This document shows positions 603 to 40,568 of a stretch of 64,000 nucleotides of DNA, one piece after another. This stretch comes from Phocaeicola salanitronis DSM 18170 (GTDB taxonomy: Bacteria; Bacteroidota; Bacteroidia; Bacteroidales; Bacteroidaceae). Location: contig NC_015164.1 of the NCBI RefSeq assembly GCF_000190575.1, positions 3,744,001 to 3,808,000 of the forward strand. The letters are read 5' to 3'. The translations under genes were made by a program, and so were the position numbers. Every line of letters starts with the position of its first letter. Position 1 is the stretch's first letter. Under the pieces are notes generated by a model. That model searched no databases, was not told the DNA's origin, and saw only the letters and a list, made by a program, of their open reading frames with translations.

Positions 603-647
603 TAATGGTTAGAAAGGAGCATCGTTAGATGCTATCTTTCGTTGTTA
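603..647 (-). repeat. attC-like cassette boundary site
   Basis: Plus-strand ends are TAATGG and GTTGTTA. Stem arms GAAAG/CTTTC and GCATC/GATGC flank a GTTA loop, with an asymmetric GA versus TAT bulge. It belongs to the same subtype as 32721-32765 and 35903-35947. Confidence 0.8.
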
Positions 648-693
648 CTAACTTTATTATTTATAAGACTAATCGAATTTTTCTGCCGATTTA

Positions 694-1077
694 TCAAGCT
701 ATAAACAGTTTACGAAAAATTAAAATTCCTATGATTGCGATATAAATCGGAATGCAGAATATCATCCAATTAGAAATTAGCTTGTTTCTTGTGCAACCTT
801 GATACTTCTTTTTTAATTCCAGAATTTTCTTTTTCCTGTATCGAATACAGCAATATATGATTAACAGGCATAAAGGAACGAGTAAGAAGCATAAGCTATA
901 AAGTCCCTCTAAGAACCACGCATATTTATGTTGCATGTCATACCATTCCTTAATAGCGAAAAAGGCTATAATGAGTGATATGCCCAAGCTATAACATAAG
1001 TGGATGACAGCACTAAGGTATGGTGGGTCGCCATGCTTTTCATACATTCGATATAGTCTATAAAATATATAATCCAT
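694..1077 (-). CDS. Small three-helix membrane protein
   Basis: This 127-residue protein has three predicted membrane segments (about residues 21-42, 57-78 and 102-122) and a strongly basic loop (RKKK, about 80-98) that should face the cytoplasm. I recognise no family. It occupies a complete cassette between sites 603-647 and 1087-1131, and its ATG at 1077 lies 9 nt beyond the upstream site. By context it may protect against an envelope-targeting toxin; this is inference. Confidence 0.65.
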   Translation of the reverse strand: MDYIFYRLYRMYEKHGDPPYLSAVIHLCYSLGISLIIAFFAIKEWYDMQHKYAWFLEGLYSLCFLLVPLCLLIIYCCIRYRKKKILELKKKYQGCTRNKLISNWMIFCIPIYIAIIGILIFRKLFIA

Positions 1078-1086
1078 ATTTGTTAG

Positions 1087-1131
1087 TAATGGTTAAGCAG
1101 GGAACGGCTTGTCCGTTATCCTGCTTCGTTA
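1087..1131 (-). repeat. attC-like cassette boundary site
   Basis: Stem arms are GCAGG/CCTGC and ACGG/CCGT, with TAAT and GTTA ends. The subtype is shared with 26402, 29738 and 30911. Confidence 0.8.
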
Positions 1132-1165
1132 ACATCATATTTAATTTCCATTCCAGTGTACCATA
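1132..1165 (-). pseudogene. Remnant of a PoNi gene 3' end
   Basis: The stretch nearly matches the last codons of the PoNi gene at 36563-37300 (the MVHWNEIKYDVNEA end) and lies next to the same kind of boundary site. In gene order it follows the 1166-1687 gene, so that gene appears to have been inserted at the 3' end of a PoNi gene. The tail was left behind while the upstream PoNi copy kept its own end. Confidence 0.6.
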
Positions 1166-1687
1166 TTAATACACCATAATCACAAGGTCCTTTTGTGCTT
1201 CAACGGCTTCATCGAAAATGAAGTTCAAATCGTCCATTTCCTGCTCATAGTCGTAATCGCCGATACCATTGCCTTCTTCCAGCGAATTGTATTCCATCCT
1301 CTTGCTCTCCAATTCAGAAACAGGTATGCTAATGATATAGGGAAAATCATCACTCAATGGAATAGGGATGAATGTGCTTTGGCTATCCAGTTGCCAAAGG
1401 TTTTCCGCACAATAGATTTGCGTTCCGAAATGATTGCAAATCTTTTCATATACATACCCGTACATGGAAGCGATTTCGGGATAACGGACTTCTCCGTTCA
1501 CAATATCAGCCAATACAGCATAAGCATCCATATCCGTGTTCAGACTATCGCTGAAATAATCGTTCAAACTGTCAAGTCCCGGCTTCAGTGCAGCCTTTAA
1601 TTGGTTAAGCAGCAGATTATCACGAGCTCCATAAACAGACTTTACCTTATCGGCTTCTGTCAAATATGCACAAACAGAGTAACTCAT
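1166..1687 (-). CDS. DUF7691-like cytoplasmic protein
   Basis: This is a 173-residue acidic protein without a signal peptide. The start MSYSVCAYLTEADKVKSVYG followed by an acidic, helical body resembles the DUF7691-type family, though I hold that assignment loosely. It starts 8 nt after the PoNi gene stop at 1696 with no boundary site between them, so the two are cotranscribed and travel as one cassette. Copies of a PoNi-derived 12-mer (CAGTGTACCATA on the plus strand) lie on both sides, at 1154 and 1715, which fits a secondary insertion. Confidence 0.55.
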   Translation of the reverse strand: MSYSVCAYLTEADKVKSVYGARDNLLLNQLKAALKPGLDSLNDYFSDSLNTDMDAYAVLADIVNGEVRYPEIASMYGYVYEKICNHFGTQIYCAENLWQLDSQSTFIPIPLSDDFPYIISIPVSELESKRMEYNSLEEGNGIGDYDYEQEMDDLNFIFDEAVEAQKDLVIMVY

Positions 1688-1695
1688 ACTTATCT

Positions 1696-2397
1696 TTATT
1701 TTATGTTGTCGTTCCAGTGTACCATATCGTATGGATAATATGGCAACCCTTTCAGGCTGCTATCATCCAGCCCCAAAACCTTGACCAATGCACCGCTTTC
1801 AAAACACCAATAACCGTCATGGTTGATACCATATTTATGGTCGTTGTGCCAAGATAAATCAGAATGACCCCGATACCATTCTTTTTTGAGGTATTTTTCC
1901 AATCGTTTTACAGCTTCTGCCTTATCTTGTTCTGCCAACTCTGTAACAGTGATAGCAGCTTGATAGGGTGACGGATATAATACTTTGTTTGTAGTCCTTT
2001 TCCAATCTGGGAATCTGTATCTAATCAAGGTGTCATAAATATAGTCTTTTGCTTCTCTATCTTTTATCAGTTGCACCAAACTCTGTATTAGGTCATCTTC
2101 ATAATCCAACATGATACCTATTGACAAAAGCCACAACATTTCAATATAAAATCCGTTATCCGTCCAAAATCTCGGCATCGTTTTGATGACTTCCACATAA
2201 TTATTTTTCAGATTATCAATATCCTGTCCCATAGAATACTGTACCAATAAATAACGAAGCCTATAATTGAACAAAGAATCGTAACCTATATGTTTTCCTG
2301 AAAGATGCATTTGTTCATAATAACTAATATCTTCATCATACATTTTCAGTTGCTTCAAATACTGTTCTTCGGTAAAAAGTTTATCTCTTGTTTCCAT
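1696..2397 (-). CDS. PoNi family immunity protein (DUF1910/DUF1911)
   Basis: This 233-residue protein ends in the DUF1911 signature (about residues 173-233): EWYRGHSDLSWHNDHKYG, GYWCFESGALVKVLGLDDSS, then YYPYDMVHW. The helical N-terminal half fits DUF1910. PoNi proteins neutralise PoNe-type DNase toxins in the cytoplasm. A paralogue lies at 36563-37300 and shares the first eight residues, METRDKLF, and the C-terminal block. The gene is framed by inverted copies of the 12-mer TATGGTACACTG (2398-2409 and 1715-1726). Transcription probably comes from a promoter further upstream in the array. Confidence 0.88.
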   Translation of the reverse strand: METRDKLFTEEQYLKQLKMYDEDISYYEQMHLSGKHIGYDSLFNYRLRYLLVQYSMGQDIDNLKNNYVEVIKTMPRFWTDNGFYIEMLWLLSIGIMLDYEDDLIQSLVQLIKDREAKDYIYDTLIRYRFPDWKRTTNKVLYPSPYQAAITVTELAEQDKAEAVKRLEKYLKKEWYRGHSDLSWHNDHKYGINHDGYWCFESGALVKVLGLDDSSLKGLPYYPYDMVHWNDNIK

Positions 2398-2409
2398 TAT
2401 GGTACACTG
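2398..2409. repeat. 12-bp inverted repeat bordering the PoNi gene
   Basis: TATGGTACACTG directly abuts the PoNi start codon. Its inverse, CAGTGTACCATA, lies at 1715-1726 in the 3' end of the gene and again at 1154-1165. The paralogue at 36563 is framed the same way (37301-37312 and 36597-36608). Confidence 0.6.
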
Positions 2410-2421
2410 TTTTTGATGTTA

Positions 2422-2500
2422 ATTTGTTTATAAATACACCTGTAGGTATAGGATATTTCGATAACCGACACCTGGCAGGTGTGTTTCCTAATCTCTAATA
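2422..2500 (-). repeat. Long-form boundary repeat, copy 1
   Basis: The stretch contains the perfect 15-bp palindrome ACACCTGGCAGGTGT (2468-2482) and an outer ACACCTG...CAGGTGT pairing. It is almost identical to 24937-25015 and 39935-40013, and it replaces the usual 45-bp site. Confidence 0.65.
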
Positions 2501-2572
2501 GCAACACCCGTCAGATGTCAGACATTCCGCTAACCCACGCCATGCGGGGCGTATATCCTGACCTCCATGCCC

Positions 2573-2666: not shown

Positions 2667-2690
2667 AAAAAAAGCCTGAACGGGTCAGGC
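2667..2690 (-). terminator. Rho-independent terminator of TetR copy 1
   Basis: On the minus strand GCCTGA-CCCGT-TCAGGC is followed by seven T. The TetR stop codon (TGA) lies inside the first arm. Confidence 0.9.
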
Positions 2691-3296
2691 TTTAATCAGC
2701 GAATAGATGAAACGGAGCTTGCGGGAGAGTTCCCCCGTGTCCAGACCGGAGAGGAAAGCCTGCTCGAAAGACAAGCCGTAGAATACCTCGCGGAACATGG
2801 CGACGGTTTCCTCCGTGTCCACCTCCGCGCGGATTTCGCCCGACGACTTCGCCCGCTCGATAATGTCGCGCCACAGCTTCCGGTCTTTCTCGAACAGGGC
2901 GGCGAACTTCGCCCCGGCATCGGGGTAATACTGCCGCACTTGCATCAACAGGTGGAAGTAGTAGAAGTTGTAGCTGCATCCCTGCGGGTTGTTCCCGTCG
3001 TCGAGCAAGCCTACGATGCGGCGCATGGTCTTTTCCACGCTTTCCACATGGTGGTCGATGAACTCCAGCAGCGTGCCGCCCCGGAAGCTGAACTTGTTGG
3101 CAGGGTCTTGCGTGGCGAAGATGTATTTGTCCACCACCGCCACGAACAGGTCTTGCTTGAAGGAGTAGTAATAAATCAGCCCCCACTTGGACAGCCCGCA
3201 GGCTTTGGCGATAGTCACCAGACTTGCCTTCTCGTAGTTCATCTTGGCGAACACCCGCAAGGCGTTCTCCAGCACTTCTTCCCGGTTTGTTATCAT
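2685..3296 (-). CDS. TetR/AcrR family transcriptional regulator, copy 1
   Basis: This 203-residue protein has an N-terminal TetR helix-turn-helix (about residues 12-50: VLENALRVFAKMNYEKASLV, then TIAKACGLSKWGLIYYYSFK) and an alpha-helical ligand-binding C-terminal domain. Copies at 16766 and 25197 differ at only one to three residues. The recognition-helix position that is Pro in copy 3 (SKPGL) is Trp here, which is unusual for the family. It is followed by its own terminator and by a promoter reading into the next cassettes, so it may control immunity expression. The inducer is unknown. Confidence 0.85.
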   Translation of the reverse strand: MITNREEVLENALRVFAKMNYEKASLVTIAKACGLSKWGLIYYYSFKQDLFVAVVDKYIFATQDPANKFSFRGGTLLEFIDHHVESVEKTMRRIVGLLDDGNNPQGCSYNFYYFHLLMQVRQYYPDAGAKFAALFEKDRKLWRDIIERAKSSGEIRAEVDTEETVAMFREVFYGLSFEQAFLSGLDTGELSRKLRFIYSLIKA

Positions 3297-7225: not shown

Positions 7226-7849
7226 TTAATGGTTTGGTGAGGAACAGTGTTCAGCTGTTGGCTCGACTTGGTTATACACTCTATTCTTCATTTGAAATAG
7301 TTTGTTGTATGGTATTACAAATTCGTTTGTTTCATAAATAGGGGCAAACATTCGTATCATAAATACCTTGCAATAGATACTATCGCATATTATATCATCA
7401 TTGGGGTGCTGTGTAATGAACAGTGCTTTATATAAAAACTTATCGTTTGTTTCTTTGACAAAATCTACATCATAAGAGGTTAGTATGGCAAAATTATCAT
7501 CACCAATGCAATCATTCCAACTGAAATTACTGATATTGCTTCCTACCAAAACAAGCAGGCAATCATCGAGCTTCTTATCTGTTACAAATTCAATTACTCC
7601 ATCCCATATAGGATGACTGCATGTTATATCGGTGTAGTCATTTGCAGATACGCCTCTTATTTGTACTTGCTCAACGAAAGGCATTCTTTTTAATCCCCAT
7701 TGAACAGGCAACAATGTAAATAGCCATACATACATTCCAACAATGATGATAATCGGAAATGCAAACATCAAGGAGTGTCTTAAATCCTTTCGGACAAGGC
7801 ATCCCAAGAAGGCTATAATTAGCATAAGAAGCAATACAATGACTACCAT
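7226..7849 (-). CDS. Membrane-anchored protein reading through a boundary site
   Basis: This 207-residue protein has two N-terminal membrane segments (about 2-17 and 26-48) and a soluble domain with repeated acidic motifs. A paralogue (186 residues) lies at 38645-39205 and stops before its own boundary site. Here the site's usual TAA is out of frame, so the last 16 residues (NQVEPTAEHCSSPNH) are encoded by the site itself. The stop is 4 nt from the next start at 7221. No named family is recognised. Confidence 0.65.
   Translation of the reverse strand: MVVIVLLLMLIIAFLGCLVRKDLRHSLMFAFPIIIIVGMYVWLFTLLPVQWGLKRMPFVEQVQIRGVSANDYTDITCSHPIWDGVIEFVTDKKLDDCLLVLVGSNISNFSWNDCIGDDNFAILTSYDVDFVKETNDKFLYKALFITQHPNDDIICDSIYCKVFMIRMFAPIYETNEFVIPYNKLFQMKNRVYNQVEPTAEHCSSPNH
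7227..7274 (-). repeat. attC-like boundary site inside a coding end
   Basis: GGTGAG/CTCGACT and ACAG/CTGT arms with TAAT and GTTA ends. It lies within the 3' end of the gene above. The subtype is shared with 22854, 31708, 34733 and 38591. Confidence 0.7.
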
Positions 7850-13581: not shown

Positions 13582-13625
13582 TGATGGCTAAGTGGGTTGG
13601 TGAAGAATAGCATTCAACTATTGTT
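13582..13625 (-). repeat. Degenerate attC-like boundary site
   Basis: GGTTGGTGAAG start and TTGTTAG end, with short AATAG/CTATT arms. It resembles the 22854 subtype after decay. Confidence 0.45.
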
Positions 13626-13631
13626 AGTTAG

Positions 13632-14393
13632 TTACTTAATGACTTCAATGTCTTGAATAGGTATATAACCAAAAGGAGCATTGAAAATAGAATTTACTCT
13701 GCACCAACCATTTGTTAATGCACTTATGACAACAGACATTCCAAATCGGACTGCTACGCCATCTTCACCTTTGGTAGTTTTTTCTCCATTAGGTAAAGAA
13801 TAAACGTGGGTGCTGCATAGTATGGCATTATCTCCAACTTGTGGCATAAAGTTTGTCCTTTTAGCATTTTGGGGACTCTGTAACATTATATCATATTGTG
13901 TTTCTATGCATTTAGTAGATGGGAATAAGTATGCTTCAAAACAATCCTTACATTCATTCTCTTTAGGAAAATGCTCGATATGAAAACCAGAAGCGTCAGC
14001 ATACAATTTTCCGTGAGTTTCATCGCCTTTATTATATACTCCATATATTAATCGCCCATCGGAATTATAATATGCAATACTATGCAAGTCACCTCCGTCA
14101 GCCCATCGCTTAAATATTTTTCTTATTTTATTATCTCTATCGAAATACATAGTGAACAATATATTGGCATTCTTTATTTGACCATCATCTAAAATTTTAT
14201 ACGAATGAACTTGATTAAAATCCATATATTCATCACTTATCACTTCTCCCAGACTATCCAAAGGAACAAGGTATGCAATCCACAAAGGCATTTCGTTTAT
14301 TGCATCAAGCTCTGTTTGAATAGTTACCTTATAGCTTTGTGCGAAAGTATAAGGTGAAAGCAAGAATAAAATGTATAGCATTATTATTTTCAT
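13632..14393 (-). CDS. Secreted protein with C-terminal SH3-like domain
   Basis: The real start is the ATG at 14393 (MKIIMLYILFLLSPYTFAQ, a signal peptide); upstream in-frame codons only cover the promoter block. The 253-residue product has a MORN-like middle part (YYNSDGRLIYGVYNKGDETHG) and a C-terminal bacterial SH3-like domain (about 190-253, ending GWCRVNSIFNAPFGYIPIQD). It probably acts in the periplasm. The SH3 architecture recurs at the N-terminus of the 30968-31693 product. The new promoter directly upstream gives this gene its own transcription start. Confidence 0.7.
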   Translation of the reverse strand: MKIIMLYILFLLSPYTFAQSYKVTIQTELDAINEMPLWIAYLVPLDSLGEVISDEYMDFNQVHSYKILDDGQIKNANILFTMYFDRDNKIRKIFKRWADGGDLHSIAYYNSDGRLIYGVYNKGDETHGKLYADASGFHIEHFPKENECKDCFEAYLFPSTKCIETQYDIMLQSPQNAKRTNFMPQVGDNAILCSTHVYSLPNGEKTTKGEDGVAVRFGMSVVISALTNGWCRVNSIFNAPFGYIPIQDIEVIK

Positions 14394-14780: not shown

Positions 14781-14828
14781 TAATGGTTTGGCGGGAAACG
14801 GCGTTAAGCTATTGCCTTGACCTTGTTA
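14781..14828 (-). repeat. attC-like cassette boundary site
   Basis: TAATGG and GTTA ends, with GGCGGGAA and short inner arms partly decayed. It overlaps the end of the 14809-15579 gene. Confidence 0.65.
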
Positions 14829-15927: not shown

Positions 15928-15974
15928 TAATGGTTTAGTAAGGAATATCACTCAGGGGTTATCTTTCCTTGTTA
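15928..15974 (-). repeat. attC-like cassette boundary site
   Basis: TAATGG and GTTA ends, with AGTAAGGAA/TTTCCTT outer pairing. The stop of the next gene (15959) lies inside it. The subtype is shared with 22142 and 19622. Confidence 0.7.
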
Positions 15975-16747: not shown

Positions 16748-16771
16748 AAAAAAAGCCTGAACGGGTCAGGC
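16748..16771 (-). terminator. Rho-independent terminator of TetR copy 2
   Basis: GCCTGA-CCCGT-TCAGGC plus seven T on the minus strand. Confidence 0.9.
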
Positions 16772-19621: not shown

Positions 19622-19667
19622 TAATGATTTGGTGGAAAACACCCGTTCAGGGGTTATCTTCCTTTGT
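19622..19667 (-). repeat. attC-like cassette boundary site, partly degenerate
   Basis: TAATGATTT start, ACCC-GTTCA-GGGGT inner hairpin and TTTGTTT end. The next gene's TAA stop lies within it. Confidence 0.55.
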
Positions 19668-21456: not shown

Positions 21457-21503
21457 TAATGGTTTGACAAGGAGCTGCGTTCAGCAGCTATCTTGGCTCG
21501 TTA
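21457..21503 (-). repeat. attC-like cassette boundary site
   Basis: ACAAG/CTTGG and GCTGC/GCAGC arms with a GTTCA loop, TAAT and GTTAG ends. It is nearly identical to 27566-27612. Confidence 0.8.
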
Positions 21504-22141: not shown

Positions 22142-22189
22142 TAATGGTTTAGAAAAGGAATACCACTCAGGGGTTATCTTTTCTTGTTA
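22142..22189 (-). repeat. attC-like cassette boundary site
   Basis: AGAAAAGG/TCTTTTCT outer arms, ACTCAGGGGT core, TAAT and GTTAT ends. The stop of the next gene lies within it. Confidence 0.75.
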
Positions 22190-22853: not shown

Positions 22854-22901
22854 TAATGGGTTGGTGCGGAACAGCGTTTAGCTGTTAGCTCAACCTTGTT
22901 A
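22854..22901 (-). repeat. attC-like cassette boundary site
   Basis: GGTTG/CAACC and ACAGC/GCTGT arms with a GTTTA centre. The TAA stop of the next gene is the site's terminal CTAAC. Confidence 0.8.
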
Positions 22902-24352: not shown

Positions 24353-24400
24353 TAATGGGATGCAGCTTGCCGCCGTTATAGGCGGCACAGGTGCATGTTA
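24353..24400 (-). repeat. attC-like cassette boundary site
   Basis: TGCA/TGCA and TGCCGCC/GGCGGCA arms with an extended GTTATA loop, TAATGG and GTTA ends. The subtype is shared with 33929, 37323 and 39229. Confidence 0.8.
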
Positions 24401-24904: not shown

Positions 24905-24936
24905 ATTCTTTTGTTTTTAATTAATTGCGACTAATT

Positions 24937-25015
24937 TGTTTATAAATACACCTGTAGGTATAGGATATTTCGATAACCGACACCTGGCAGGTGTGTTTCC
25001 TAATCTCTAATAGCA
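24937..25015 (-). repeat. Long-form boundary repeat, copy 2
   Basis: Near-identical to 2422-2500, including the ACACCTGGCAGGTGT palindrome. Confidence 0.65.
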
Positions 25016-25178: not shown

Positions 25179-25202
25179 AAAAAAAGCCTGAACGGGTCAG
25201 GC
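25179..25202 (-). terminator. Rho-independent terminator of TetR copy 3
   Basis: GCCTGA-CCCGT-TCAGGC plus seven T on the minus strand. Confidence 0.9.
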
Positions 25203-26401: not shown

Positions 26402-26446
26402 TAATGGTTCAGCAGGGAACGGCTTGTCCGTTGTCCCAGTTTGTTA
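26402..26446 (-). repeat. attC-like cassette boundary site
   Basis: GCAGGGAACGG/CCGTTGTCCCAG stem, TAATGG and GTTAG ends. It supplies the TAA stop of the next gene. Confidence 0.8.
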
Positions 26447-27550
26447 GAAACTTATTTTCTTCCTTTTTAGTATATCTGCCAACCAATTAGGAACAAACTC
26501 TTTCGCCCTTGGGCATATATTAAAATCATCCGCAAAATCATAGTCATCAAATGCTTTTTGTAGGACCTCCACCCTTACATCATAGTTGAACTCTTTCACA
26601 AAATCACCGTTTTTATTCACCGTCATTTTCAGTTCATAAAATCCCCCTTCTTCTTTTTTACTTTCGTACATTTCCTTTTTAATATCCCATATAAAGTTGT
26701 CAATATACATTAACACGGTAACACTCAGATTACAATCGTGTATTACACCATCTTTACAATACGAAACTTTATCATAGCTAACTTTAGAAACTCTATAAGC
26801 ATCAAAAATAAAAACATCCCATTCTGCGTAGGATAATATTTTAGTGAAAATATTTTCCAACTGATTGAATAATGACATGACTTTATCATTATTCACATAT
26901 TCATGTGTTTGCGTTCTTGGCTGTTCCAGAGTTTTGTATATAGGTCGCTCGATTTTATAGTCATTTGTCAGCATCTTGTCTTTATCAAATGCCGTTGATG
27001 AACATTCTGTAAGATACCAGTTCCAAAACTCTTTGTTACGCTCATTATCAATAGAATCTAAATCTACAATACCGCCATTATATACTAAACTTGCGAGGAA
27101 AGCGGTATCCCATTCGTCCGGGTCTTCTATTTCTTCTTCAGAATCATAATCACTGATAACCATATCTGCATCTGAGCCGGCATCATAAGCAGCATGAACA
27201 GCTACCTTAGCAGCAAACACGGCTGTAATATCATCTTCCATATAATTATCAGCAAACACGTCCAAATGTTCGGCATCTTCCAACAATTCCTTTTTACTCG
27301 TTTGTTCCAGCAAGTATTTCTCTGTTTTCTTTATCAGCCCGATTATTTCCGTATCATTCCTGAAAAAGTCATTCCATATCGGATATACTTTCAACGCACA
27401 TAAGATACTTATTCTCCCAATAACACACGGTTTATTGATGGCTTGTAGTATCGCACGCCTTGTAGAAAGAGACAAATGCCCTTTGTCTGAATGATTGACT
27501 TCATCCAAACCTTTGCTTATCAAAGAGGTTATCGTTTCTGTATATTTCAT
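26444..27550 (-). CDS. Imm5-like plus YezG-like two-domain immunity protein
   Basis: This 368-residue cytoplasmic protein has an all-helical N-terminal part (about 1-200; GHLSLSTRRAILQAI, then helices with DITAVFAAKVAVHAAYDAG) that fits Imm5. The C-terminal domain (about 225-368), with KKEEGGFYELKMTVNKNGDF followed by VKEFNYD and PNWLADILK, fits the YezG/DUF600 immunity fold. The same architecture is found at 29810-30892. Two immunity domains in one chain could neutralise two toxins. Confidence 0.75.
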   Translation of the reverse strand: MKYTETITSLISKGLDEVNHSDKGHLSLSTRRAILQAINKPCVIGRISILCALKVYPIWNDFFRNDTEIIGLIKKTEKYLLEQTSKKELLEDAEHLDVFADNYMEDDITAVFAAKVAVHAAYDAGSDADMVISDYDSEEEIEDPDEWDTAFLASLVYNGGIVDLDSIDNERNKEFWNWYLTECSSTAFDKDKMLTNDYKIERPIYKTLEQPRTQTHEYVNNDKVMSLFNQLENIFTKILSYAEWDVFIFDAYRVSKVSYDKVSYCKDGVIHDCNLSVTVLMYIDNFIWDIKKEMYESKKEEGGFYELKMTVNKNGDFVKEFNYDVRVEVLQKAFDDYDFADDFNICPRAKEFVPNWLADILKRKKISF

Positions 27551-27565: not shown

Positions 27566-27612
27566 TAATGGTTTGACAAGGAGCTGCGTTTAACAGCTGA
27601 CTTGGCTTGTTA
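27566..27612 (-). repeat. attC-like cassette boundary site
   Basis: Near-identical to 21457-21503: ACAAG/CTTGG and AGCTGC/ACAGCT arms, TAAT and GTTAG ends. Confidence 0.8.
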
Positions 27613-27621: not shown

Positions 27622-28518
27622 TTAATCCCACATAAATCCCCCTAAAAAAGTAAGACCGTTATAATTATCCAATTCTTCAATATAGTTTTTGGGTTTATTC
27701 CCGTTACGGAATAATTCTTTTTTGAAAATGAATATTTTTTGGTCTTTTTTCTTATCACGAAAGCCATTAGGGATATAGCAGAACGCACAATTTGCCATTC
27801 TAATTTTTTGCTTTTCCAAAGTAAAATCTACTGCATCATATAAAAATTCATCCTTAATAACGTTCCGTACTAATTCTTTGGCTTCAATTATGTTATCTGC
27901 AAATTCTATGTGCAAAAATTCTGGATAGTAAAAATTTATCCCTAAATCCTTACAAAACTGGCATCTTAACATTGGACTTGGACGTTTTTTTATTTCTCCA
28001 TTATTGAATTTACGCAATTCTTCAAGATATTCATCTTGATTGAAGTATTGCATAAATTCATCTTTACTTTTATGCGTTATTCCAACCCAAGTTAAATTGC
28101 GCAACCCAGCTAAGGAAGTTGATACACCTTCTATTTCGTCTGCTTGAAAATCAAATGTTCCTAAGAAAAACATACTTTTAGCCTTTTTTGCCTGAGTACG
28201 TGTTATATCTTCTCCAGTATTATAACAGATAGCGGCATTTGCTTTTTGTATGTTTTGCTCTTTACAAAGTTGCATTACTTTTTCTGTTTTAGCTGGTATC
28301 ATTTTAACCAATTCATCTATACCACATGCTGAAAATTTCGTTACCAAAAAATCTTCATCATAACTTGATATATTAAGTTCTTTGCAGAATTGACAACTTA
28401 ACTCTAAATTATCTTCGTCATGTTCTGCCCACCATTGACGGAATTTTGATTGATCTATATAAGTTTCAAATTCAGCATTTGAATGAAACTGTCCAATCCA
28501 AATATAAACTTTACTCAT
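27622..28518 (-). CDS. Tandem Imm22 immunity protein
   Basis: This 298-residue protein is built of two Imm22-type repeats. The first (about 1-130) has WIGQFHSNAEFETYI, LSCQFCKELNISSYDEDFL and an ICYNTGE loop. The second (about 135-298) has TWVGITHKSKDEFMQYFNQD, CQFCKDLGINFYYPEFL and CAFCYIPNG. The repeated CxFCK motif suggests a conserved structural Cys pair. It is cytoplasmic. Imm22 proteins usually have one domain, so this is an internal duplication with diverged halves. Confidence 0.82.
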   Translation of the reverse strand: MSKVYIWIGQFHSNAEFETYIDQSKFRQWWAEHDEDNLELSCQFCKELNISSYDEDFLVTKFSACGIDELVKMIPAKTEKVMQLCKEQNIQKANAAICYNTGEDITRTQAKKAKSMFFLGTFDFQADEIEGVSTSLAGLRNLTWVGITHKSKDEFMQYFNQDEYLEELRKFNNGEIKKRPSPMLRCQFCKDLGINFYYPEFLHIEFADNIIEAKELVRNVIKDEFLYDAVDFTLEKQKIRMANCAFCYIPNGFRDKKKDQKIFIFKKELFRNGNKPKNYIEELDNYNGLTFLGGFMWD

Positions 28519-28552: not shown

Positions 28553-28598
28553 TAATGGTTTAGCGGGAAACGCTGTTAAGCGTTATCCCGGTTTGTTA
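28553..28598 (-). repeat. attC-like cassette boundary site
   Basis: GCGGG/CCCG and ACGCT/AGCGT arms with a GTTA loop, TAATGG and GTTAG ends. It is one of the clearest copies. Confidence 0.85.
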
Positions 28599-28710: not shown

Positions 28711-29688
28711 TTACAATCCACAACGCCTCCACCTGTCTGTCCGCATCTGTACTGCATCGATTTTCCATGCTTCCCCCACACGTTTCATCCAGAAACGATA
28801 GTCGAGATTGATTCTTTCATCCTGCGCATAGATGTAAAGTTTGTTGCGGGAAACCTGTTCGGCATCAACCAGGCGGAAGGCGGCATACGTTCCCTCTGGA
28901 GAAAGCGACAAAGCGAGCGGTCGATACCCCATCCGTGGCTTCTCGGATACATACTGCTGCCAGATCTGCTGCAACTTCGGTCGCACATCCGGCGCATCAA
29001 AACCTGCCTGGTCGGTATATTTTTCCCATTGAGTCATGGCGGCAAAGAAAGCATACAGCACCTGTTCCGTCTGATGAACCGCATCAGCGTCCACCTCCGG
29101 CTTCTTCTTTGCCTGGTTCCGTTGCAACGAGGCGAACAGCTCCATCTGCTCCTGGGTAAAGAGGTCGCCAGGACACAAGGAAAGGCGTTTATTGAAAGCA
29201 ATGCCAAGCACCCCTTCATAGGTGATCTGAGTTTGTCGAACATGCAAATGATTCAGCTTCGGAAGCTGAGCAGCCCGATGCAACCCCTCATCGTCCAGCG
29301 ACGTGGCGCTCAAGTCCAACAGAGCCACCTTACTTGCCTGCATTATGGACAACCCCTTTCCCGTAATTGCAGGATTTCCTGCCAAGAGCAGATACTCCAA
29401 AGCGGGCATGGTGGCAAATACCGCAAAGCATGCGTCGGTAAGCTCCGCATATTCGATCCCTACATTGACCATTTTCTTGGCACCAGCCAACGGTTGAACC
29501 TGTTCGTCTGTCAAAGGGTAATGCTTGACATGAAATCCCACCAAAGCAGGATAAGCGCCAATCTGTTGCATCACCTCCACAGACAGTTCGGGCATGAGCA
29601 TCACCTTATCGCCATCAAAAATCAGTTTGCCGTCCTCCCAGCCTATGGTACGTGCTCGTTTGGGAAAAGAAGTAAGTTCTTTTATCAT
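28711..29688 (-). CDS. LRR plus NTF2-like immunity protein
   Basis: The 325-residue product has LRR-type units in about residues 40-170 (LVGFHVKHYPLTDEQVQPLA, LEYLLLAGNPAITGKGL, VALLDLSATSLDDEGL, LNHLHVRQTQITYEGV) and an NTF2-like domain in about 205-325 (VLYAFFAAMTQWEKYTDQ, FRLVDAEQ, YRFWMKRVGEAWKIDAVQMR). NTF2-fold proteins are common immunity proteins. Its GC content is clearly higher than surrounding cassettes, a sign of separate origin. It is cytoplasmic. Confidence 0.7.
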   Translation of the reverse strand: MIKELTSFPKRARTIGWEDGKLIFDGDKVMLMPELSVEVMQQIGAYPALVGFHVKHYPLTDEQVQPLAGAKKMVNVGIEYAELTDACFAVFATMPALEYLLLAGNPAITGKGLSIMQASKVALLDLSATSLDDEGLHRAAQLPKLNHLHVRQTQITYEGVLGIAFNKRLSLCPGDLFTQEQMELFASLQRNQAKKKPEVDADAVHQTEQVLYAFFAAMTQWEKYTDQAGFDAPDVRPKLQQIWQQYVSEKPRMGYRPLALSLSPEGTYAAFRLVDAEQVSRNKLYIYAQDERINLDYRFWMKRVGEAWKIDAVQMRTDRWRRCGL

Positions 29689-29737: not shown

Positions 29738-29781
29738 TAATGATTCAGCAGGGAACGGCTTGCCGTTATCCTGCGCTGTTA
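29738..29781 (-). repeat. attC-like cassette boundary site
   Basis: GCAGG/CCTGC and ACGGC/GCCGT arms with a two-base loop; TAATGA and GTTAG ends. Confidence 0.75.
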
Positions 29782-29809: not shown

Positions 29810-30892
29810 CTAAGTCAAGTACAGCTTTCTACTTCCAACTATTTTCCTTAACCACTTAGGGGTATATTCTATACTTCGTGGAAATTTGGTGTAAAAGCTC
29901 AAAATCCAATCTAATTCCTGAAAATAACTTGGAATTTCATCCCAATTATCATAATTAAAATCCAAATTGTAAGAACTATTTGAGTTAATGACCATTTTTA
30001 GAGAGAACCAAGCTCCTTCCTTTGGATAATACATATACATTTCTTTTCGTTTCAATCTAAATTCCTTACATATATTAATGGTCGCCATCGTCCCTATTTT
30101 TATCTTATCTCCAGTAGAAGAATGTATATTTAACATACTGCTGGTGCATGATACAAATAAAACATCTATAAAACCCCATTTCATCCCAGAGGGTATTTGA
30201 AGTAAAATAGCATCTCTAATATCATCAAAAGATATTCTTTTATTTGTTTTTACTAAATCTAATTGACGACGGACAGGTATGTCAATTAAAGGAGTTGCAC
30301 TTTTGCATACTGGCAATGACTGGTATTTGACATTTGGATTTTGAGAAACTTCCAATACCATTTTTACATACCACAACCAATATTCCTTACGTTTCTCTAC
30401 ATCCCCTGTTTCCACGAAAGGATTGCTGCCAGAGCAAGCTATCGAGCATATAAAATCCGCATTCCAGCTTTCGGGGTCGAAAGCGTCATCATCCTCGCCG
30501 TTATAATCCTCTATTGCCAATATGGAGACTGCATCGTAACGGATGGCATATCCCAAAGTAATAATAGCCCAGTTTACCATATCTTCGGGGTTTTCGATAG
30601 TTTGTTCCGCATAATTGCGCAACCGCTCTACTGAAGCTGATATATTCTCGACATCACCCTTATTTTTATACAGGTAACGGTCTATATCAAACAAAACACC
30701 ATACAACAGGTTTTCCGCACCAAAATTCTCCGGGAAGCAAGAACAGGCTTTCTTGCAACACTCGCACAACACTTTTTGTACCGTCCGTGTGCTTCCTATT
30801 TGCTTCATCAAATCAACTCGATAGGGCAAAGGCAAATGCCCCATACTGTTTTGATTGATTATTTCTTTCAGTTTTTCTATTTGCTGTATCAT
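29810..30892 (-). CDS. Imm5-like plus YezG-like two-domain immunity protein, paralogue
   Basis: The 360-residue product has an Imm5-type N-terminal part (MGHLPLPYRVDLMKQIG, Cys-rich CECCKKACSCF, then helices to about 195) and a YezG-like C-terminal part (about 215-360; WGFIDVLFVSC, AWFSLKMVINSNSSYNLDFN, YTPKWLRKIVG). It shares architecture and the GHLxL start with 26444-27550 but is well diverged in sequence, as expected for different toxin specificities. Confidence 0.75.
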   Translation of the reverse strand: MIQQIEKLKEIINQNSMGHLPLPYRVDLMKQIGSTRTVQKVLCECCKKACSCFPENFGAENLLYGVLFDIDRYLYKNKGDVENISASVERLRNYAEQTIENPEDMVNWAIITLGYAIRYDAVSILAIEDYNGEDDDAFDPESWNADFICSIACSGSNPFVETGDVEKRKEYWLWYVKMVLEVSQNPNVKYQSLPVCKSATPLIDIPVRRQLDLVKTNKRISFDDIRDAILLQIPSGMKWGFIDVLFVSCTSSMLNIHSSTGDKIKIGTMATINICKEFRLKRKEMYMYYPKEGAWFSLKMVINSNSSYNLDFNYDNWDEIPSYFQELDWILSFYTKFPRSIEYTPKWLRKIVGSRKLYLT

Positions 30893-30910: not shown

Positions 30911-30954
30911 TAATGGTTAGCAGGGAACGGCTTGTCCGTTATCCTGCGTTGTTA
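30911..30954 (-). repeat. attC-like cassette boundary site
   Basis: GCAGG/CCTGC and ACGG/CCGT arms; TAATGG and GTTAGC ends. It is the closest match to 1087-1131. Confidence 0.8.
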
Positions 30955-31707: not shown

Positions 31708-31755
31708 TAATGGTTTGGTGAGGAACAGCGTTTAGCTGTTATCTCGACCTTGTTA
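31708..31755 (-). repeat. attC-like cassette boundary site
   Basis: GGTGAG/CTCGACC and ACAGC/GCTGT arms; TAATGG and GTTATG ends. Confidence 0.8.
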
Positions 31756-32720: not shown

Positions 32721-32765
32721 TAATGGTTAGAAAGGAGCATCGTCAGATGCTATCTTTCGTTGTTA
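32721..32765 (-). repeat. attC-like cassette boundary site
   Basis: GAAAG/CTTTC and GCATC/GATGC arms with a GTCA loop. It differs from 603-647 by one base, although the two sites lie 32 kb apart. Confidence 0.85.
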
Positions 32766-33214
32766 GATACTAAATTTATGGTTTCAAGGACATTGCCCGA
32801 TATAATATTTTGAACACCACTGAATATATCACTGCCATAATAATAAACAAGATTATCATAATCAGCCCACACTTGTTCTCGTTCATCTAACCATACAGTC
32901 AAATAACCGGGATGAATGTCTGCTAAATAGATAACCTTATTGACCTTTAACTTCACAGCCACTTTCTGCATAGCTTCCGGGCTGTATTTCTTTATTTTCT
33001 TGACATCAAAATAAAGAATATTAGATTGGTTCAGTTCTAATTTCATGTTATAGAATAGAGCAATCTTGCTTATAATACCGTCATTCAAAGGATAATCAAA
33101 CTTTGAATAGGATTGTTTTAACTTATCAGCGTAACAATCCGACATCATTTGAAAGTTAAATTCATCCCAATGGTTATGAACAAGTATTTCCTTTATTGCA
33201 GTAGGTATATTCAT
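32750..33214 (-). CDS. SUKH-3-like immunity protein
   Basis: This 154-residue cytoplasmic protein has a helical N-terminus with WDEFNFQMMSDCYADKLKQS and a C-terminal half with VIYLADIHPGYLTVWLDERE then VWADYDNLVYYYGSDIFSGV, which fits the SUKH-3 branch of the SMI1/KNR4 superfamily. The final codons (SNNER, TAG) lie inside the boundary site. The usual SUKH-3 length is similar, so the protein looks complete. Confidence 0.75.
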   Translation of the reverse strand: MNIPTAIKEILVHNHWDEFNFQMMSDCYADKLKQSYSKFDYPLNDGIISKIALFYNMKLELNQSNILYFDVKKIKKYSPEAMQKVAVKLKVNKVIYLADIHPGYLTVWLDEREQVWADYDNLVYYYGSDIFSGVQNIISGNVLETINLVSNNER

Positions 33215-33227: not shown

Positions 33228-33275
33228 TAATGGGGTGGCGGGAAACGGCGTTTAGCTGTTTTCCTGATTTTGTTA
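33228..33275 (-). repeat. attC-like cassette boundary site
   Basis: GGCGGGAAAC start and TTTTCCTG end, with a GTTTA centre; TAATGG and GTTAGC ends. The inner stem is partly mismatched. Confidence 0.7.
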
Positions 33276-33928: not shown

Positions 33929-33974
33929 TAATGGTTTGCAGCTTGCCGCCGTTAGGTGGCACAGGTGCTTGTTA
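33929..33974 (-). repeat. attC-like cassette boundary site
   Basis: TTGCCGCC/GGTGGCA inner arms with a GTTA loop; TAATGG and GTTAGC ends. It is the subtype of 24353. Confidence 0.8.
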
Positions 33975-33985: not shown

Positions 33986-34708
33986 TCAAAAAATAAAGCT
34001 AAATGATTGGAGATCTTCTATCATCTTGCTTTGGATTTCATTTTCATTCCAAGGCATACCCTCAATCAAAGCTAATCTTTTAATAGCTTTAATTCCACGT
34101 TCTTTTAACTCAAATGAAATAGAGCCGGTTATTTTTATTTGCGCAAAAGCGGTAGCATAGGTAACCATATCACTTTGAATCATATCCATTTCCTTATCTG
34201 CTGCCATCTTTTTAACTTCGTCGGCATCGAGAGTAGTGATAGGAACATACTCCATATCCCAGTCTTGTTCTATCAACTTCTGTGGAAAGTTGGAAAAGTC
34301 AAGATTTGGATTTTTCCTAATGGCTTCAAATATGCAAATCAACGTATCATGTCCTTCATCACTTCCGAATGGAGTTTCTTCATCACCTTCTGAATAATAT
34401 ATTTCATCACTGAAATGTTCGGAAAACCTTGGATGTGATGTTTTGGGATTAAGCCCAAATTCATCGCTGTCAATATATAATCGCTTCATAAAATCAAAGT
34501 TCCCGTCTTCTATATAGCCTTTTTTCATTTTTGAGCGGATTAACTTTTCGGCTTCCTTTTGACAGTCTTCTTGTGTATCAAATTCCTTTACTTCAAATTT
34601 TCCTATGCTACCGTATTTGCCGTAATTTACAGCAAAACTACAATCACTATAATCTATCCACCAAAATTTGTGGGATTTCTCATCTTTATATACAAAGGCT
34701 CTTTTCAT
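33986..34708 (-). CDS. WGR plus YfeS-like domain protein
   Basis: This 240-residue protein has an N-terminal WGR domain (about 1-65; KFWWIDYSDCSFAVNYGKYG, then EDCQKEAEKLIRSKMKKGY) and a YfeS-like domain (about 75-240; FGLNPKTSHPRFSEHFSDEI, then SPFGSDEGHDTL-type FGSDEGHDTLICIFEAIR). The pairing resembles E. coli YfeS. WGR domains bind nucleic acid or protein partners. It is cytoplasmic; function in immunity is inferred from its array context. Confidence 0.72.
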   Translation of the reverse strand: MKRAFVYKDEKSHKFWWIDYSDCSFAVNYGKYGSIGKFEVKEFDTQEDCQKEAEKLIRSKMKKGYIEDGNFDFMKRLYIDSDEFGLNPKTSHPRFSEHFSDEIYYSEGDEETPFGSDEGHDTLICIFEAIRKNPNLDFSNFPQKLIEQDWDMEYVPITTLDADEVKKMAADKEMDMIQSDMVTYATAFAQIKITGSISFELKERGIKAIKRLALIEGMPWNENEIQSKMIEDLQSFSFIF

Positions 34709-34732: not shown

Positions 34733-34780
34733 TAATGGTTTGGTGAGGAACAGCGCTCAGCTGTTGGCTCGACCTTGTTA
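34733..34780 (-). repeat. attC-like cassette boundary site
   Basis: GGTGAG/CTCGACC and ACAGC/GCTGT arms; TAATGG and GTTATG ends. It is the subtype of 31708. Confidence 0.8.
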
Positions 34781-35902: not shown

Positions 35903-35947
35903 TAATGGTTAGAAAGTAGCATCGTCAGATGCTATCTTTCGTTGTTA
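35903..35947 (-). repeat. attC-like cassette boundary site
   Basis: GAAAG/CTTTC and GCATC/GATGC arms with a GTCA loop; TAATGG and GTTAG ends. Confidence 0.85.
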
Positions 35948-36529: not shown

Positions 36530-36575
36530 TAATGGTTTAGCGGGGAACGCTGTAAGGCGTTATCACGCTTCGTTA
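36530..36575 (-). repeat. attC-like cassette boundary site
   Basis: GCGGG/CACGC-like and AACGC/GCGTT arms; TAATGG and GTTAA ends. It overlaps the PoNi gene end. Confidence 0.75.
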
Positions 36576-37300
36576 ACATCATATTTAATTTCATTCCAGT
36601 GTACCATATCGTATGGATAGTATGGTAACCCTTTCAGGCTGCTATCATCCAGCCCCAAAACCTTGACCAATGCACCGCTCTCAAAACACCAATATCCGTC
36701 ATGTATTAGACCATATTTGTGGTCGTCGTGCCAAGCGCAATCGGAATGTCCACGATACCATTCCCTTTTGAGATACTTTTCCAATCGCTTTGTCGCCTGT
36801 GTCTTGTTTGTTTTAGCCAAATCCGACACTTCCAAGATTGCCCGATAAGGCACAGCGTCAAACACGCAATCCGCCATTTCCTTCCGTTCCGGGAAACGGT
36901 AATTCAGCAATACATCATAAACACGGTCTTTAACTTCTTTCATGTCTATAAGTACACGGAGTTTGTGAATGACATTATTATCATACTCCAACATGATACC
37001 TATTGAAAGCAGCCATAACATCTGAACATAATAGCCATACGGAGTCCAACATTTTTCTAAAACATTGATTGTCGAAATATAATTGGATTTTATAAATTCT
37101 AAATTCTCCCCCATAGAATACATAGTTACGATAGTATAAACTCTACAATCAAATAAACGTCCATACAAATCAGGACTAATCTCATCTCCATCTTTTTCTG
37201 ATTGTTCTATCATACTATTAAGTTTTTCTATTCGACAATAATACTTAGCCAATTGCTTTATATACTGTTCTTCCGTAAAAAGTTTATCTCTTGTTTCCAT
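36563..37300 (-). CDS. PoNi family immunity protein, paralogue
   Basis: This 245-residue protein shares METRDKLFTEEQYIKQL at the N-terminus and a DUF1911 C-terminus (REWYRGHSDCAWHDDHKYG, GYWCFESGALVKVLGLDDSS, YYPYDMVHWNE) with the 1696-2397 protein; the middle (about 20-150) is diverged. The TGA stop lies inside the boundary site. Inverted 12-mers (37301-37312 and 36597-36608) frame the gene as in the paralogue. Confidence 0.88.
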   Translation of the reverse strand: METRDKLFTEEQYIKQLAKYYCRIEKLNSMIEQSEKDGDEISPDLYGRLFDCRVYTIVTMYSMGENLEFIKSNYISTINVLEKCWTPYGYYVQMLWLLSIGIMLEYDNNVIHKLRVLIDMKEVKDRVYDVLLNYRFPERKEMADCVFDAVPYRAILEVSDLAKTNKTQATKRLEKYLKREWYRGHSDCAWHDDHKYGLIHDGYWCFESGALVKVLGLDDSSLKGLPYYPYDMVHWNEIKYDVNEA

Positions 37301-37322: not shown

Positions 37323-37370
37323 TAATGGGTTGCAGCTAATCGCCGTTTAGGGCGATTAAGATGCATGTTA
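37323..37370 (-). repeat. attC-like cassette boundary site
   Basis: TGCA/TGCA and AATCGCC/GGCGATT arms with a GTTTAG loop; TAATGG and GTTATC ends. The arms differ from 24353 in both strands, keeping pairing. Confidence 0.8.
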
Positions 37371-38590: not shown

Positions 38591-38638
38591 TAATGGTTTG
38601 GTGAGCAACAGCGTTTAGCTGTTGTCTCGACCTCGTTA
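38591..38638 (-). repeat. attC-like cassette boundary site
   Basis: GGTGAG/CTCGACC and ACAGC/GCTGT arms; TAATGG and GTTATA ends. Confidence 0.8.
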
Positions 38639-38644
38639 TAAACT

Positions 38645-39205: not shown

Positions 39206-39228
39206 CCTATTTCAATTCTAATTGTTTA

Positions 39229-39274
39229 TAATGGGATGCAGCTTGCCGCCGTTAGGCGGTATAGGTGCTTGTTA
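39229..39274 (-). repeat. attC-like cassette boundary site
   Basis: GCCGCC/GGCGGT arms with a GTTA loop; TAATGG and GTTAGC ends. Confidence 0.8.
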
Positions 39275-39284
39275 GCTACGTTCT

Positions 39285-39911
39285 TTATTGTTCCATTTTC
39301 CGTTTTACAATATCAACAAATTCATCTTTAGTCATGAACTTATTTAGGAAATCTTCCAATGTTCCTTCGTTAGTAACCTCTGTAAAAAACACTTCATGGT
39401 CTGTACTCCACACTATTGGATTGTCTGGATTAAGGTCTGATAAACAGATGTAATGATAATTGGGATAACTTTCTGTACAAAGCAATCCAACAAAGTCAGG
39501 AGTAGTACAGTTTGAATGTTGAATGATTTCGTCCAAATCTGTATCATCATCTGAAAACCAATCATTCCAATCTTCAAAATCTTTCGTGCCTTTTTGAAAT
39601 GGAGTAAATGGTTTTGCTACCCAAAAAAATTGTCCACGAGGTTCTTCATTTAATGTATAGTAGGTATCTACCATTTTCTTATAAAATGCCTCTTTATCAG
39701 AATTGAACAATTCCATATTTTCATCTACCCAATTACCTAAACCCATTATAGGCTCTGTATCTTCGGCAGATAGCCAAGGTGTATCTTCCGGCTTTTGATA
39801 CAAAGCAGTATTAAAAGTTATGGCACACAAGTCGTCTTGTAAAGACATTCCTTTTACATTGGCGATATTACCGCCTAATTGCTTTATTCGGTTTATGATT
39901 TCCTGTTTCAT
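39285..39911 (-). CDS. SMI1/KNR4 (SUKH) family immunity protein, paralogue
   Basis: This 208-residue duplicate of 33285-33908 has the same SUKH block (FVGLLCTESYPNYHYICLSD) with scattered conservative changes and one inserted residue in the acidic SDDDTDLDE loop. The variation is spread evenly rather than confined to one face. It is followed by site 39229 and preceded by a long-form repeat. Confidence 0.82.
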   Translation of the reverse strand: MKQEIINRIKQLGGNIANVKGMSLQDDLCAITFNTALYQKPEDTPWLSAEDTEPIMGLGNWVDENMELFNSDKEAFYKKMVDTYYTLNEEPRGQFFWVAKPFTPFQKGTKDFEDWNDWFSDDDTDLDEIIQHSNCTTPDFVGLLCTESYPNYHYICLSDLNPDNPIVWSTDHEVFFTEVTNEGTLEDFLNKFMTKDEFVDIVKRKMEQ

Positions 39912-39934
39912 GACTCTTATTCATTTGTAGCTAA

Positions 39935-40013
39935 TTTGTTTATAAATACACCTGTAGGTATAGGATATTTCGATAACCGACACCTGGCAGGTGTGTTTCC
40001 TGATCTCTATTAG
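39935..40013 (-). repeat. Long-form boundary repeat, copy 3
   Basis: Same ACACCTGGCAGGTGT palindrome and flanks as 2422 and 24937, but here without an adjoining promoter or TetR gene. This shows the repeat is a boundary element in its own right. Confidence 0.65.
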
Positions 40014-40018
40014 TAACT

Positions 40019-40321
40019 TTAATCACCCGTAATTCTTATCTTAGATATATTGGTGGTATTTATACAATTTACTATGTGCTCAATCTCCTTACCATAAGGA
40101 GATTTTTTTCCAATTTCTTTTAACTCATTAATGAAAGATACTAATTCTGTTCCCGAAAGTTCTACATCAGTTAAATAATAGTCTTGTACACGGAATATAG
40201 TTCGAAATCGCCCTTTATCTAAATGTGCAAGATTAAACAGCCAATAATGTAAGTTTTCACTAATTTCAGACACATCCGTGCTTGTTCCGTCTTTATTATA
40301 AATTGAAATATCTAAGCCCAT
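40019..40321 (-). CDS. First array gene: small cytoplasmic protein
   Basis: This 100-residue protein (MGLDISIYNKDGTSTDVSEI at the start) has no signal peptide or membrane segment. The pattern of a short beta hairpin, a helix and FRVQDYYLTDVELSGTEL suggests a compact alpha/beta fold. I do not recognise it. It is the first gene downstream of the rightmost array promoter, with a leader of about 110 nt. Confidence 0.55.
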   Translation of the reverse strand: MGLDISIYNKDGTSTDVSEISENLHYWLFNLAHLDKGRFRTIFRVQDYYLTDVELSGTELVSFINELKEIGKKSPYGKEIEHIVNCINTTNISKIRITGD

Positions 40322-40428
40322 ATAAGAATTATTAAATTGTTACTAATGTATTGATAACAACACCTGTCAGGCATCGGACATTCCGCTAACCCACACCATG
40401 CAGGGCGTATATCTGACCTCCATGCCCC

Positions 40429-40458
40429 CAAAGGTACGAAAAGAATCGAAGAAACAAA
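40429..40458 (-). promoter_or_regulatory. Reiterated array promoter, copy 9 (array head)
   Basis: TTTG (40458-40455), 18 nt, TACCTTTG (40436-40429) on the minus strand. No array gene lies further upstream, so it plays the role of the head promoter. Confidence 0.78.
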
Positions 40459-40568
40459 CCGAATGGTTTGGAAAAGTCGCAAAATTTAATGAAGAAATTA
40501 AAAAGAAGTTGTTCGCATTTATTTGCCAAGTTTACATTCACGTAATTACAGAATAAGCTAAAATATAA

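Follow-up and report, generated by a model that had tools for sequence, protein, structure and literature searches.

Folded attC-like sites and a tyrosine recombinase suggest integron-like cassette exchange in an immunity-gene array of Phocaeicola salanitronis

Introduction

How does a long array of immunity genes gain and lose its members? We addressed this question at a locus of Phocaeicola salanitronis DSM 18170, within a 64,000-nt window (G000:C1:3744001-3808000 of the 4.31-Mb genome; coordinates marked W, or given alone, are window positions) and the adjoining 20 kb on its left (L032). The locus is a recombinase-associated acquired interbacterial defence (rAID) cluster, a known kind of locus, whose short genes are separated by hairpin-forming sites resembling the attC sites of integrons. 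From the comparisons below we conclude that in all likelihood this array works like an integron.

A rAID cluster is defined as a tyrosine recombinase gene upstream of at least two co-directional genes below 41% G+C (PMC12247911). A further criterion for the class is homology of the recombinase to BF9343_RS08045 of B. fragilis NCTC 9343. In the passages of that paper considered here, the intergenic motifs are described only as conserved sequence, rAID biogenesis is called an active research area, and the route by which an array gains a second copy is said to be not yet clear (PMC12247911).

Extent of the array and its sites

We built a covariance model, R1, from 24 window sites. At E<=1 it reports 26 sites in the window, 24 clear and two degenerate, of which 24 had trained the model. 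All 26 lie on the plus strand, and the array genes, from W694 to W40321, lie on the minus strand. The same search found 23 further sites in L032, again all on the plus strand (49 with the window's 26), and none in L033, the region further left (E<=1). Since L032 holds these sites and also the recombinase gene, the array spans roughly 60 kb, not 40; a preliminary description had bounded it at 603 with a length of about 40 kb, and this has to be corrected, because the array continues to the left and contains its recombinase there. In the window itself no recombinase was seen among the array genes, and no PF00589 match of the genome search falls there.

The preliminary description had counted about 30 sites of 44-48 bp. 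The hairpins are real and far beyond chance, but the count is 26, and over our whole set of 298 sites the length runs from 43 to 49 nt. The shared ends held up well: the start is TAAT in 287/298 and the end GTTA in 277/298. Seven stem families (A-G) were assigned by eye, and an Rfam scan of the window gave 0 matches. Two cruder searches were discarded: a hand-written site pattern with wrong spacing gave a single forward match in the genome, outside the arrays, and a stem search returned 294 candidates on the site strand versus 63 on the other, which was too loose and was replaced by the covariance model.

attC-like sites of the window (TAAT...GTTA, found by R1):
603..647, plus strand, family A (E=4.9e-13)
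1087..1131, plus strand, family B
7227..7274, plus strand, family C
13589..13634, plus strand, degenerate, TAAG start (weak, E=0.069)
14781..14828, plus strand, family C
15928..15974, plus strand, family G
19622..19669, plus strand, degenerate, GTTT end (weak, E=0.0013)
21457..21503, plus strand, family D
22142..22189, plus strand, family G
22854..22901, plus strand, family C
24353..24400, plus strand, family F
26402..26446, plus strand, family B
27566..27612, plus strand, family D
28553..28598, plus strand, family E
29738..29781, plus strand, family B
30911..30954, plus strand, family B
31708..31755, plus strand, family C, top R1 score (E=3.5e-16)
32721..32765, plus strand, family A, left end of the cassette repeated at L032:8579-9091 (also from repeats)
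33228..33275, plus strand, family C; the match to the repeated cassette ends at its TAATGG (also from repeats)
33929..33974, plus strand, family F
34733..34780, plus strand, family C
35903..35947, plus strand, family A
36530..36575, plus strand, family E
37323..37370, plus strand, family F
38591..38638, plus strand, family C
39229..39274, plus strand, family F

Elsewhere, two sites (L098:4662-4707 and L094:14686-14729) look by eye like chimeras of two stem families with a mismatched outer stem; perhaps recombination took place inside them.

The sites follow one recombinase

Searched with R1 at E<=0.1, the genome yields 71 matches, all on the plus strand, and 71/71 fall in two recombinase-bearing clusters (C1:3724047-3783274 and C1:495742-513292, plus strand); of 1849 first-look candidates this search scored 150, and isolated sites with weak scores may have escaped it. 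The preliminary description had named equal abundance outside arrays as fatal to its view; the hairpins are not equally common there. The second, shorter array (C1:495742-515682) has its own recombinase copy at C1:514525-515682, 97% identical to the first. That copy reads HTARH where the motif is otherwise HMLRH.

The preliminary description also proposed looking in relatives for a co-occurring tyrosine recombinase, and there is one. A scan of named genomes with a recombinase alignment gave 39 loci, comprising 36 relatives (L091-L126, of which L124, L125 and L126 are partial or weak recombinase matches) and three distant recombinases; the relatives' records are labelled Bacteroides, Phocaeicola, Parabacteroides, Coprobacter, Mediterranea, Xylanibacter, Butyricimonas or Bacteroidales. 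At E<=0.01, R1 found 225 sites in 31 of the 36 relatives' loci, invariably on the strand that does not encode the recombinase; the three distant loci gave 0. Downstream of the recombinase lie 222 of the 225 and upstream three, all in L091; the sequence searched on the two sides measured 250 kb and 281 kb.

In a survey of 40 genomes of the genus, our own included, with sites called at E<=0.001 and the recombinase at E<=1e-60, seven genomes had both, three sites only, one the recombinase only and 29 neither (Fisher p=4.7e-5). An order-wide site search found sites in 4/393 genomes, our own included; with its strict filters and 15 candidates scored per listed genome, this is no estimate of prevalence. 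Two records listed as plasmids in PLSDB, NZ_OY725747.1 (Parabacteroides distasonis) and NZ_CP081918.1 (Bacteroides ovatus), carry close relatives of the recombinase at 87.5% and 73% identity.

A sister lineage has a recombinase 47% identical to ours (L088; region L239) and mostly different stems. Its array, at L239:2075-7365, has sites mostly of other stem families (TAATGTTTGGCAGCG...). By its sequence we take L239 to be a second lineage of the same system.

Stems covary and fold as single hairpins

Covariation was measured in two alignments. A1 was made from the window sites by sequence only, with a structure drawn by hand from the same sites. Its stems pair in 75% of cells versus 54% after shuffling, one drawn outer helix pairing poorly; two-sided changes occur in 49 cells versus 13.6, and the covariation score is 0.503 versus 0.158, neither value being reached in any of 500 shuffles. 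For A4 the best-scoring 150 were taken out of the 225 sites of other genomes, giving 80 distinct rows, and were fitted to R1; alignments from R1 searches follow the model structure, and their pair counts are biased that way. Here stems pair at 93% versus 80%, with 183 two-sided changes versus 54.6 and a score of 0.413 versus 0.187 (again 0/500 shuffles), and shifting the partner by 1 to 3 columns abolishes the signal.

The claim that stems change on both sides together therefore stands, and there is compensation beyond shared ancestry, though little of it within families: sites differing at no more than 4 positions show 11 pairwise (5 distinct) double changes, next to 176 single changes that kept a pair and 308 that broke it. 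The thinness is partly due to the use of one structure, which misfits the outer stem of some families.

When the interior from TAATGG to GTTA is folded as DNA, 158 of 162 distinct sites give one simple hairpin. In 154 of these 158 the 3' arm has more unpaired bases than its 5' counterpart; the spacer is 5/2 nt in 94, and the loop 4-5 nt in 141. The asymmetric GA/TAT bulge described earlier is seldom literal, with perfect stems in only six window sites, and in the DNA folds it takes the form G/AT 76 times among the 158. Folding of both strands, also proposed earlier, predicts the non-coding strand to be the more stable in 127/162 sites, with 10 equal, a moderate bias. Integrons recombine the bottom strand only.

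Cassette ends would pair in an excised circle

If the site of an excised circle acts as a folded single strand, pairing is expected across the two ends of the cassette. We compared the 5 nt outside TAAT...GTTA as they would pair within the integrated site and as they would pair when both ends of one cassette are joined. In the circular joining, 88-92% of bases at each of the first five positions form Watson-Crick pairs (158 unique cassettes), versus 28-47%, the shuffled level, in the integrated site (250 unique). With G-T pairs allowed the circle values have z of 11.7-16.0, figures that relatedness inflates. The comparison can also be restricted to distinct five-base end pairs, of which there are 90. 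Full matches number 49, while four positions match in 18, three in nine and two or fewer in 14; over 1000 shuffles, full matches average 1.2 and never exceed 5. Unbroken runs of at least 5 pairs occur in 126/164 circles and 1/164 integrated sites. Closing the circle lowers the mean folding energy from -9.3 to -12.8 kcal/mol, with a decrease in 153/172 forms. In the sister lineage L239, 6-9 bp of end pairing are seen in 8/8 cassettes and in 0/8 integrated sites.

Part of the R-box pairing of integrons is supplied by the start of the cassette. Here the R-box pairing amounts to 4 nt (one of them a G-T pair) and at least 5 more in 126/164; the extended R-box pairing of integron attC sites is 9-11 nt (PMC2727003, in the part considered). 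The complementarity of the ends fits a folded strand of the excised cassette and would have no evident use in a transcript or a duplex site. Covariation and, more strongly, cassette-end pairing argue for the view, advanced in the preliminary description, of structure-conserved attC-like sites that would fold as single strands.

Exchange junctions lie at one end of the site

We compared 248 cassettes and found 157 shared pairs (at least 90% identity over at least 90% of the length). Junctions were analysed in pairs with differing neighbours, 129 on the left and 130 on the right (114 and 119 distinct). Pairs with a matching outer flank were left out (28 left and 27 right of the 157), so the low identity outside is partly a product of selection; selection does not account for where the step falls. 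At the end that carries the cassette's own site, the base preceding TAAT has an identity of 0.16 and TAAT itself 1.0. At the opposite end, identity is 0.97 at the base ahead of the neighbour's TAAT and 1.0 through TAATG, after which two successive bases give 0.92 and 0.52 (the latter at +6). None of the 157 left-flank scores lies between 20 and 40: neighbours match or differ outright, and therefore the breaks are not scattered through the flank. An example is the pair L032:8579-9091 and W32721-33233, 99.8% identical cassettes whose identity ends at these junction points. By these comparisons a cassette comprises a single gene with a single site, and its exchange takes place in TAAT, at the site end distal to its own gene. 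Because TAAT is nearly invariant, the presumed cleavage can be placed within it no more finely.

A possible objection is that the arrays are relics, integron-like in origin, that no longer recombine. The degenerate sites W13589 and W19622 would suit such decay, as would the partial recombinases (a 219-aa frame in L122, a 203-aa frame in L126 and, in L120, a match ending at residue 342). We nevertheless consider it unlikely: of 70 shared cassette pairs with at least 99% identity, 43 have neighbours that differ on both flanks, and among the 36 loci L091-L126 all but L122, L124, L125 and L126 have a best recombinase frame of 353-416 residues (32 loci).

Alternatively, the recombinase might use double-stranded Xer-like sites in the integrated array, the hairpin being a by-product of inverted arms. 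The enzyme is of Xer type (its XerA_Arch score is given below), and the R boxes are indeed inverted arms. However, such a mechanism has no need for complementarity of cassette ends that is absent from the integrated form, the stems change sequence yet retain their shape and arm asymmetry, and exchange takes place at one end only; we regard this explanation as quite improbable. Least credible of all, with very little probability left to it, is a role of the hairpins in RNA, where they would terminate or process the transcripts of a long operon, with cassette shuffling left to ordinary homologous recombination at repeats: the hairpins are intergenic in long co-oriented runs and several stem families recur within one array, but the flanks pair only across the ends of one cassette, as a DNA circle, and not in the transcribed site, the junctions lie within a 4-6-nt box at one end rather than being spread over the 45-nt repeat, and the sites follow one recombinase.

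A recombinase without the IntI-specific domain

The recombinase gene (L032:15561-16721, minus strand, 386 residues) is the genome's second-best PF00589 match. Its product scores 214 bits with the NCBIfam model XerA_Arch, narrowly under the cut-off of 220, and falls short of the integron integrase model TIGR02249 with 195 bits versus a cut-off of 265. The closest solved structure is IntI4 (2A3V, E=1.4e-35), aligned in two stretches with residues 221-244, the IntI insert, skipped. Some 41 residues in three gaps are found in the five aligned IntI references and are absent from the seven full-length rAID rows; an eighth rAID row, L126, is a fragment. Integron integrases have an IntI-specific additional domain around patch III, described as necessary for recombination (PMC9668308, in the part considered). 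The aligned full-length rAID rows contain R, K, HxxR, H and Y at what we take to be the catalytic positions of tyrosine recombinases. A structure predicted from a nine-row alignment was too poor for use (mean predicted local distance difference test score 59).

We placed the enzyme in a tree of 113 rows, from which L122, L124, L125, L126 and rows with identical C-terminal ends had been dropped beforehand. The 30 IntI rows form one clade (100/100) and the 28 rAID rows another (100/99); together with nine XerA-like Bacteroidia rows they make up a wider clade (99/97), apart from XerC/XerD. In the XerA-like regions L228-L236, which represent eight of those nine rows and one other, no convincing sites were found, the single R1 match being in L235 (E=0.45). 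The earlier suggestion that a different recombinase may act is thus supported, by an enzyme outside the IntI clade that has no IntI-specific domain.

attI-like elements and promoter modules

In a 32-locus alignment, the stretch after the recombinase stop codon is conserved; beyond it, the loci diverge into their first cassettes. This stretch ends in ATTA in 25/32 (23 by pattern, L102 and L103 by eye) and in ATTC in four (L091, L095, L097, L105), which have the same following bases; L106, L109 and L120 align poorly in this region. From its conservation and position, we regard the stretch beside the recombinase gene as an attI-like site. Further copies, and a second type, stand within the array.

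attI-like sequences:
from L032:15472, beside the recombinase gene (attI alignment)
2420..2488, minus strand, right end approximate (exact 27-nt match; attI alignment)
24932..25000, minus strand, right end approximate (exact 27-nt match; repeats)
39932..40000, minus strand, near the array's right end, its own right end approximate (exact 27-nt match)
40344..40480, minus strand, second attI-like type with promoter and palindrome, heading the array (sequence, repeats, palindrome)

The promoter motif at 40344..40480 (TTTG...TACCTTTG) is presumably of Bacteroides type. A palindrome, CAAACC-N4-GGTTTG, overlaps the TTTG...TACCTTTG motif and occurs nine times versus 0.07 expected (W2599, 4579, 7983, 8834, 14514, 16680, 20202, 25111 and 40455). 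Because it overlaps a promoter in an array with several near-identical TetR genes, the palindrome may be a TetR operator, and the array hence repressor-controlled.

TetR-family regulators, three window copies:
2685..3296, minus strand (Pfam PF00440)
16766-17377 (by sequence)
25197-25808 (by sequence)

Cargo genes and surroundings

A Pfam scan covered 40 proteins, 38 of them from the array; many had no family. SUKH and Imm43 were found near the recombinase.

Cassette genes of the window:
1696..2397, minus strand, PoNi immunity protein (Pfam PF08929/PF08928)
26444..27550, minus strand, Imm5 (Pfam PF14423)
27622..28518, minus strand, immunity protein 22, DUF4284 (Pfam PF14112)
28711..29688, minus strand, NTF2-fold immunity protein (Pfam PF15655)
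29810..30892, minus strand, Imm5 (Pfam PF14423)
32750..33214, minus strand, 154 aa, identical sequence encoded again at L032:8608-9072 (repeats)
33986..34708, minus strand, WGR domain
36563..37300, minus strand, PoNi immunity protein (Pfam)

The recombinase gene has 50% G+C and the next eight tested genes 31-33%; 25/27 tested window genes are below 41%. In a site-sparse part of the array, two copies of a 1.5-kb block bearing an AAA_14/DUF4143 ATPase gene (W4551-6048 and W8806-10305) are 96.5% identical. To the right of the array, W41248-45221 holds DUF3945/DUF4099 and topoisomerase genes, which are frequent on Bacteroidales integrative elements. Because these genes adjoin it, the array probably sits on such an element.

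A proposed mechanism and its weak points

In gene orientation the sequence shows the recombinase gene, an attI-like site ending as a rule in ATTA, and co-oriented cassettes of one gene and one attC-like site, each extending from just past one ATTA to the next. We propose the following steps. The non-coding strand of an excised circle would fold as N5-TAAT-spacer-stem-loop-stem-spacer-GTTA-N5', the recombinase would bind the two paired R-box arms and cut in TAAT, and it would then join the cassette to attI or to another attC. With exchange limited to the TAAT end, cassettes would hold one orientation and could share a promoter. Since the cargo consists of immunity genes against rivals' toxins, such a platform would let gut Bacteroidales collect and reshuffle protection.

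Several results weigh against this mechanism. Five of the 36 recombinase loci lack an R1 site (L093, L095, L106, L120 and L126); in L093 and L095 the sequence stops no more than about 250 nt from the recombinase. Among the surveyed genomes of the genus, G414, G421 (one weak site) and G431 have sites without a recombinase at threshold, and G424 shows the reverse. The advantage of the non-coding strand in predicted stability is moderate, with means of -8.5 versus -7.3 kcal/mol. Among the cassettes, 38/164 have fewer than 5 consecutive paired end bases, and homologous cassettes mostly have identical ends (138/157), so that complementarity may largely date from the birth of a cassette, not from ongoing compensation. 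One-sided neighbour changes of cassettes shared at >=99% identity split evenly, 5 and 5, and therefore show no polarity toward attI. The recombinase would also have to read the extrahelical bases in the absence of the IntI-specific domain. Finally, R1 has a match in only 1/10 regions (<=20 kb) around true IntI genes.

Comparison with known systems

Like rAID clusters as described in the passages of PMC12247911 considered here, the array has a tyrosine recombinase, co-oriented short low-G+C genes, immunity proteins and conserved intergenic motifs, and its immunity genes include orphans. The cargo fits as well, since PoNi, Imm5, Imm22, Imm-NTF2, SUKH and Imm43 are present; type VI secretion effectors are among the threats that some rAID immunity genes counter (PMC12247911). 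Those passages contain neither the architecture of the sites nor the cassette boundaries and attI described here, and the word 'integron' is nowhere in the text of that paper. We found no literature tying rAID to integrons or attC, a comparison that did not extend to the 2019 Nature paper on rAID. That paper named rAID and may already liken the clusters to integrons. Cassette exchange at folded sites would offer an answer to how rAID genes are gained and lost, the point that PMC12247911, as far as considered here, leaves open, and the R1 model finds cassettes independently of gene content.

The Xer recombinases XerC, XerD and XerA have the same fold family and catalytic residues as the rAID recombinase, and XerA-like ones belong to the same supported clade; unlike the rAID recombinase, the latter have no convincing attC-like sites in the regions examined.

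As for integrons themselves, R1 recognizes one classical attC beside a true IntI (L163:674-757, E=1.7e-5; the same place as L243:9576-9659), with the same GG-TTTGG spacer and CTTGTTA end as rAID sites. It is also the sole R1 match among 30 IntI loci, each about 4 kb at most, so cross-recognition by the model is thin, and a scan for classical attC near true IntI genes gave few candidates. The R boxes of attC read RYYYAAC and GTTRRRY (PMC3053210, in the part considered); ours depart from this consensus, keeping GTTA at one end and having TAAT opposite. Our sites show the attC fold, in which a spacer and a terminal loop go together with extrahelical bases on the R''-L'' arm (PMC2727003). The preliminary description had called the sites shorter than attC. 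This is true of the distance from TAAT to GTTA, but with five paired bases counted per side they would measure about 53-59 nt and be hardly shorter than attC at 57-142 nt (PMC2727003, in the part considered).

The array differs from integrons in its recombinase, which has no IntI-specific domain and stands outside the IntI clade, in a cleavage box with AAT instead of AAC, and in having several attI-like and promoter modules in one array. Here the recombinase and cassettes point in the same direction, whereas intI is usually divergent from the cassettes. By membership, then, the array is not an integron; in how it works it very probably is one, judging from its sequence. We lean towards a further proposal, held with less confidence, that integron-like immunity arrays across gut Bacteroidales are run by a second lineage of single-strand cassette recombination, one that falls outside the IntI clade and has no IntI-specific domain. 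If so, folded-site recombination would predate the IntI insert or have arisen independently of it, and a minimal XerA-like enzyme would suffice; with a recombinase of this kind tied to sites of attC anatomy, it becomes possible to test how integrons arose and what they minimally require. Integrons spread antibiotic resistance; gut Bacteroidales would own a gene-capture platform for defence against their neighbours' weapons. The two share their layout, a folded site with R boxes, an unpaired central spacer and a variable terminal loop, additional bases on the R''-L'' arm, a cassette start that completes the R-box pairing, and exchange at the gene-distal end.

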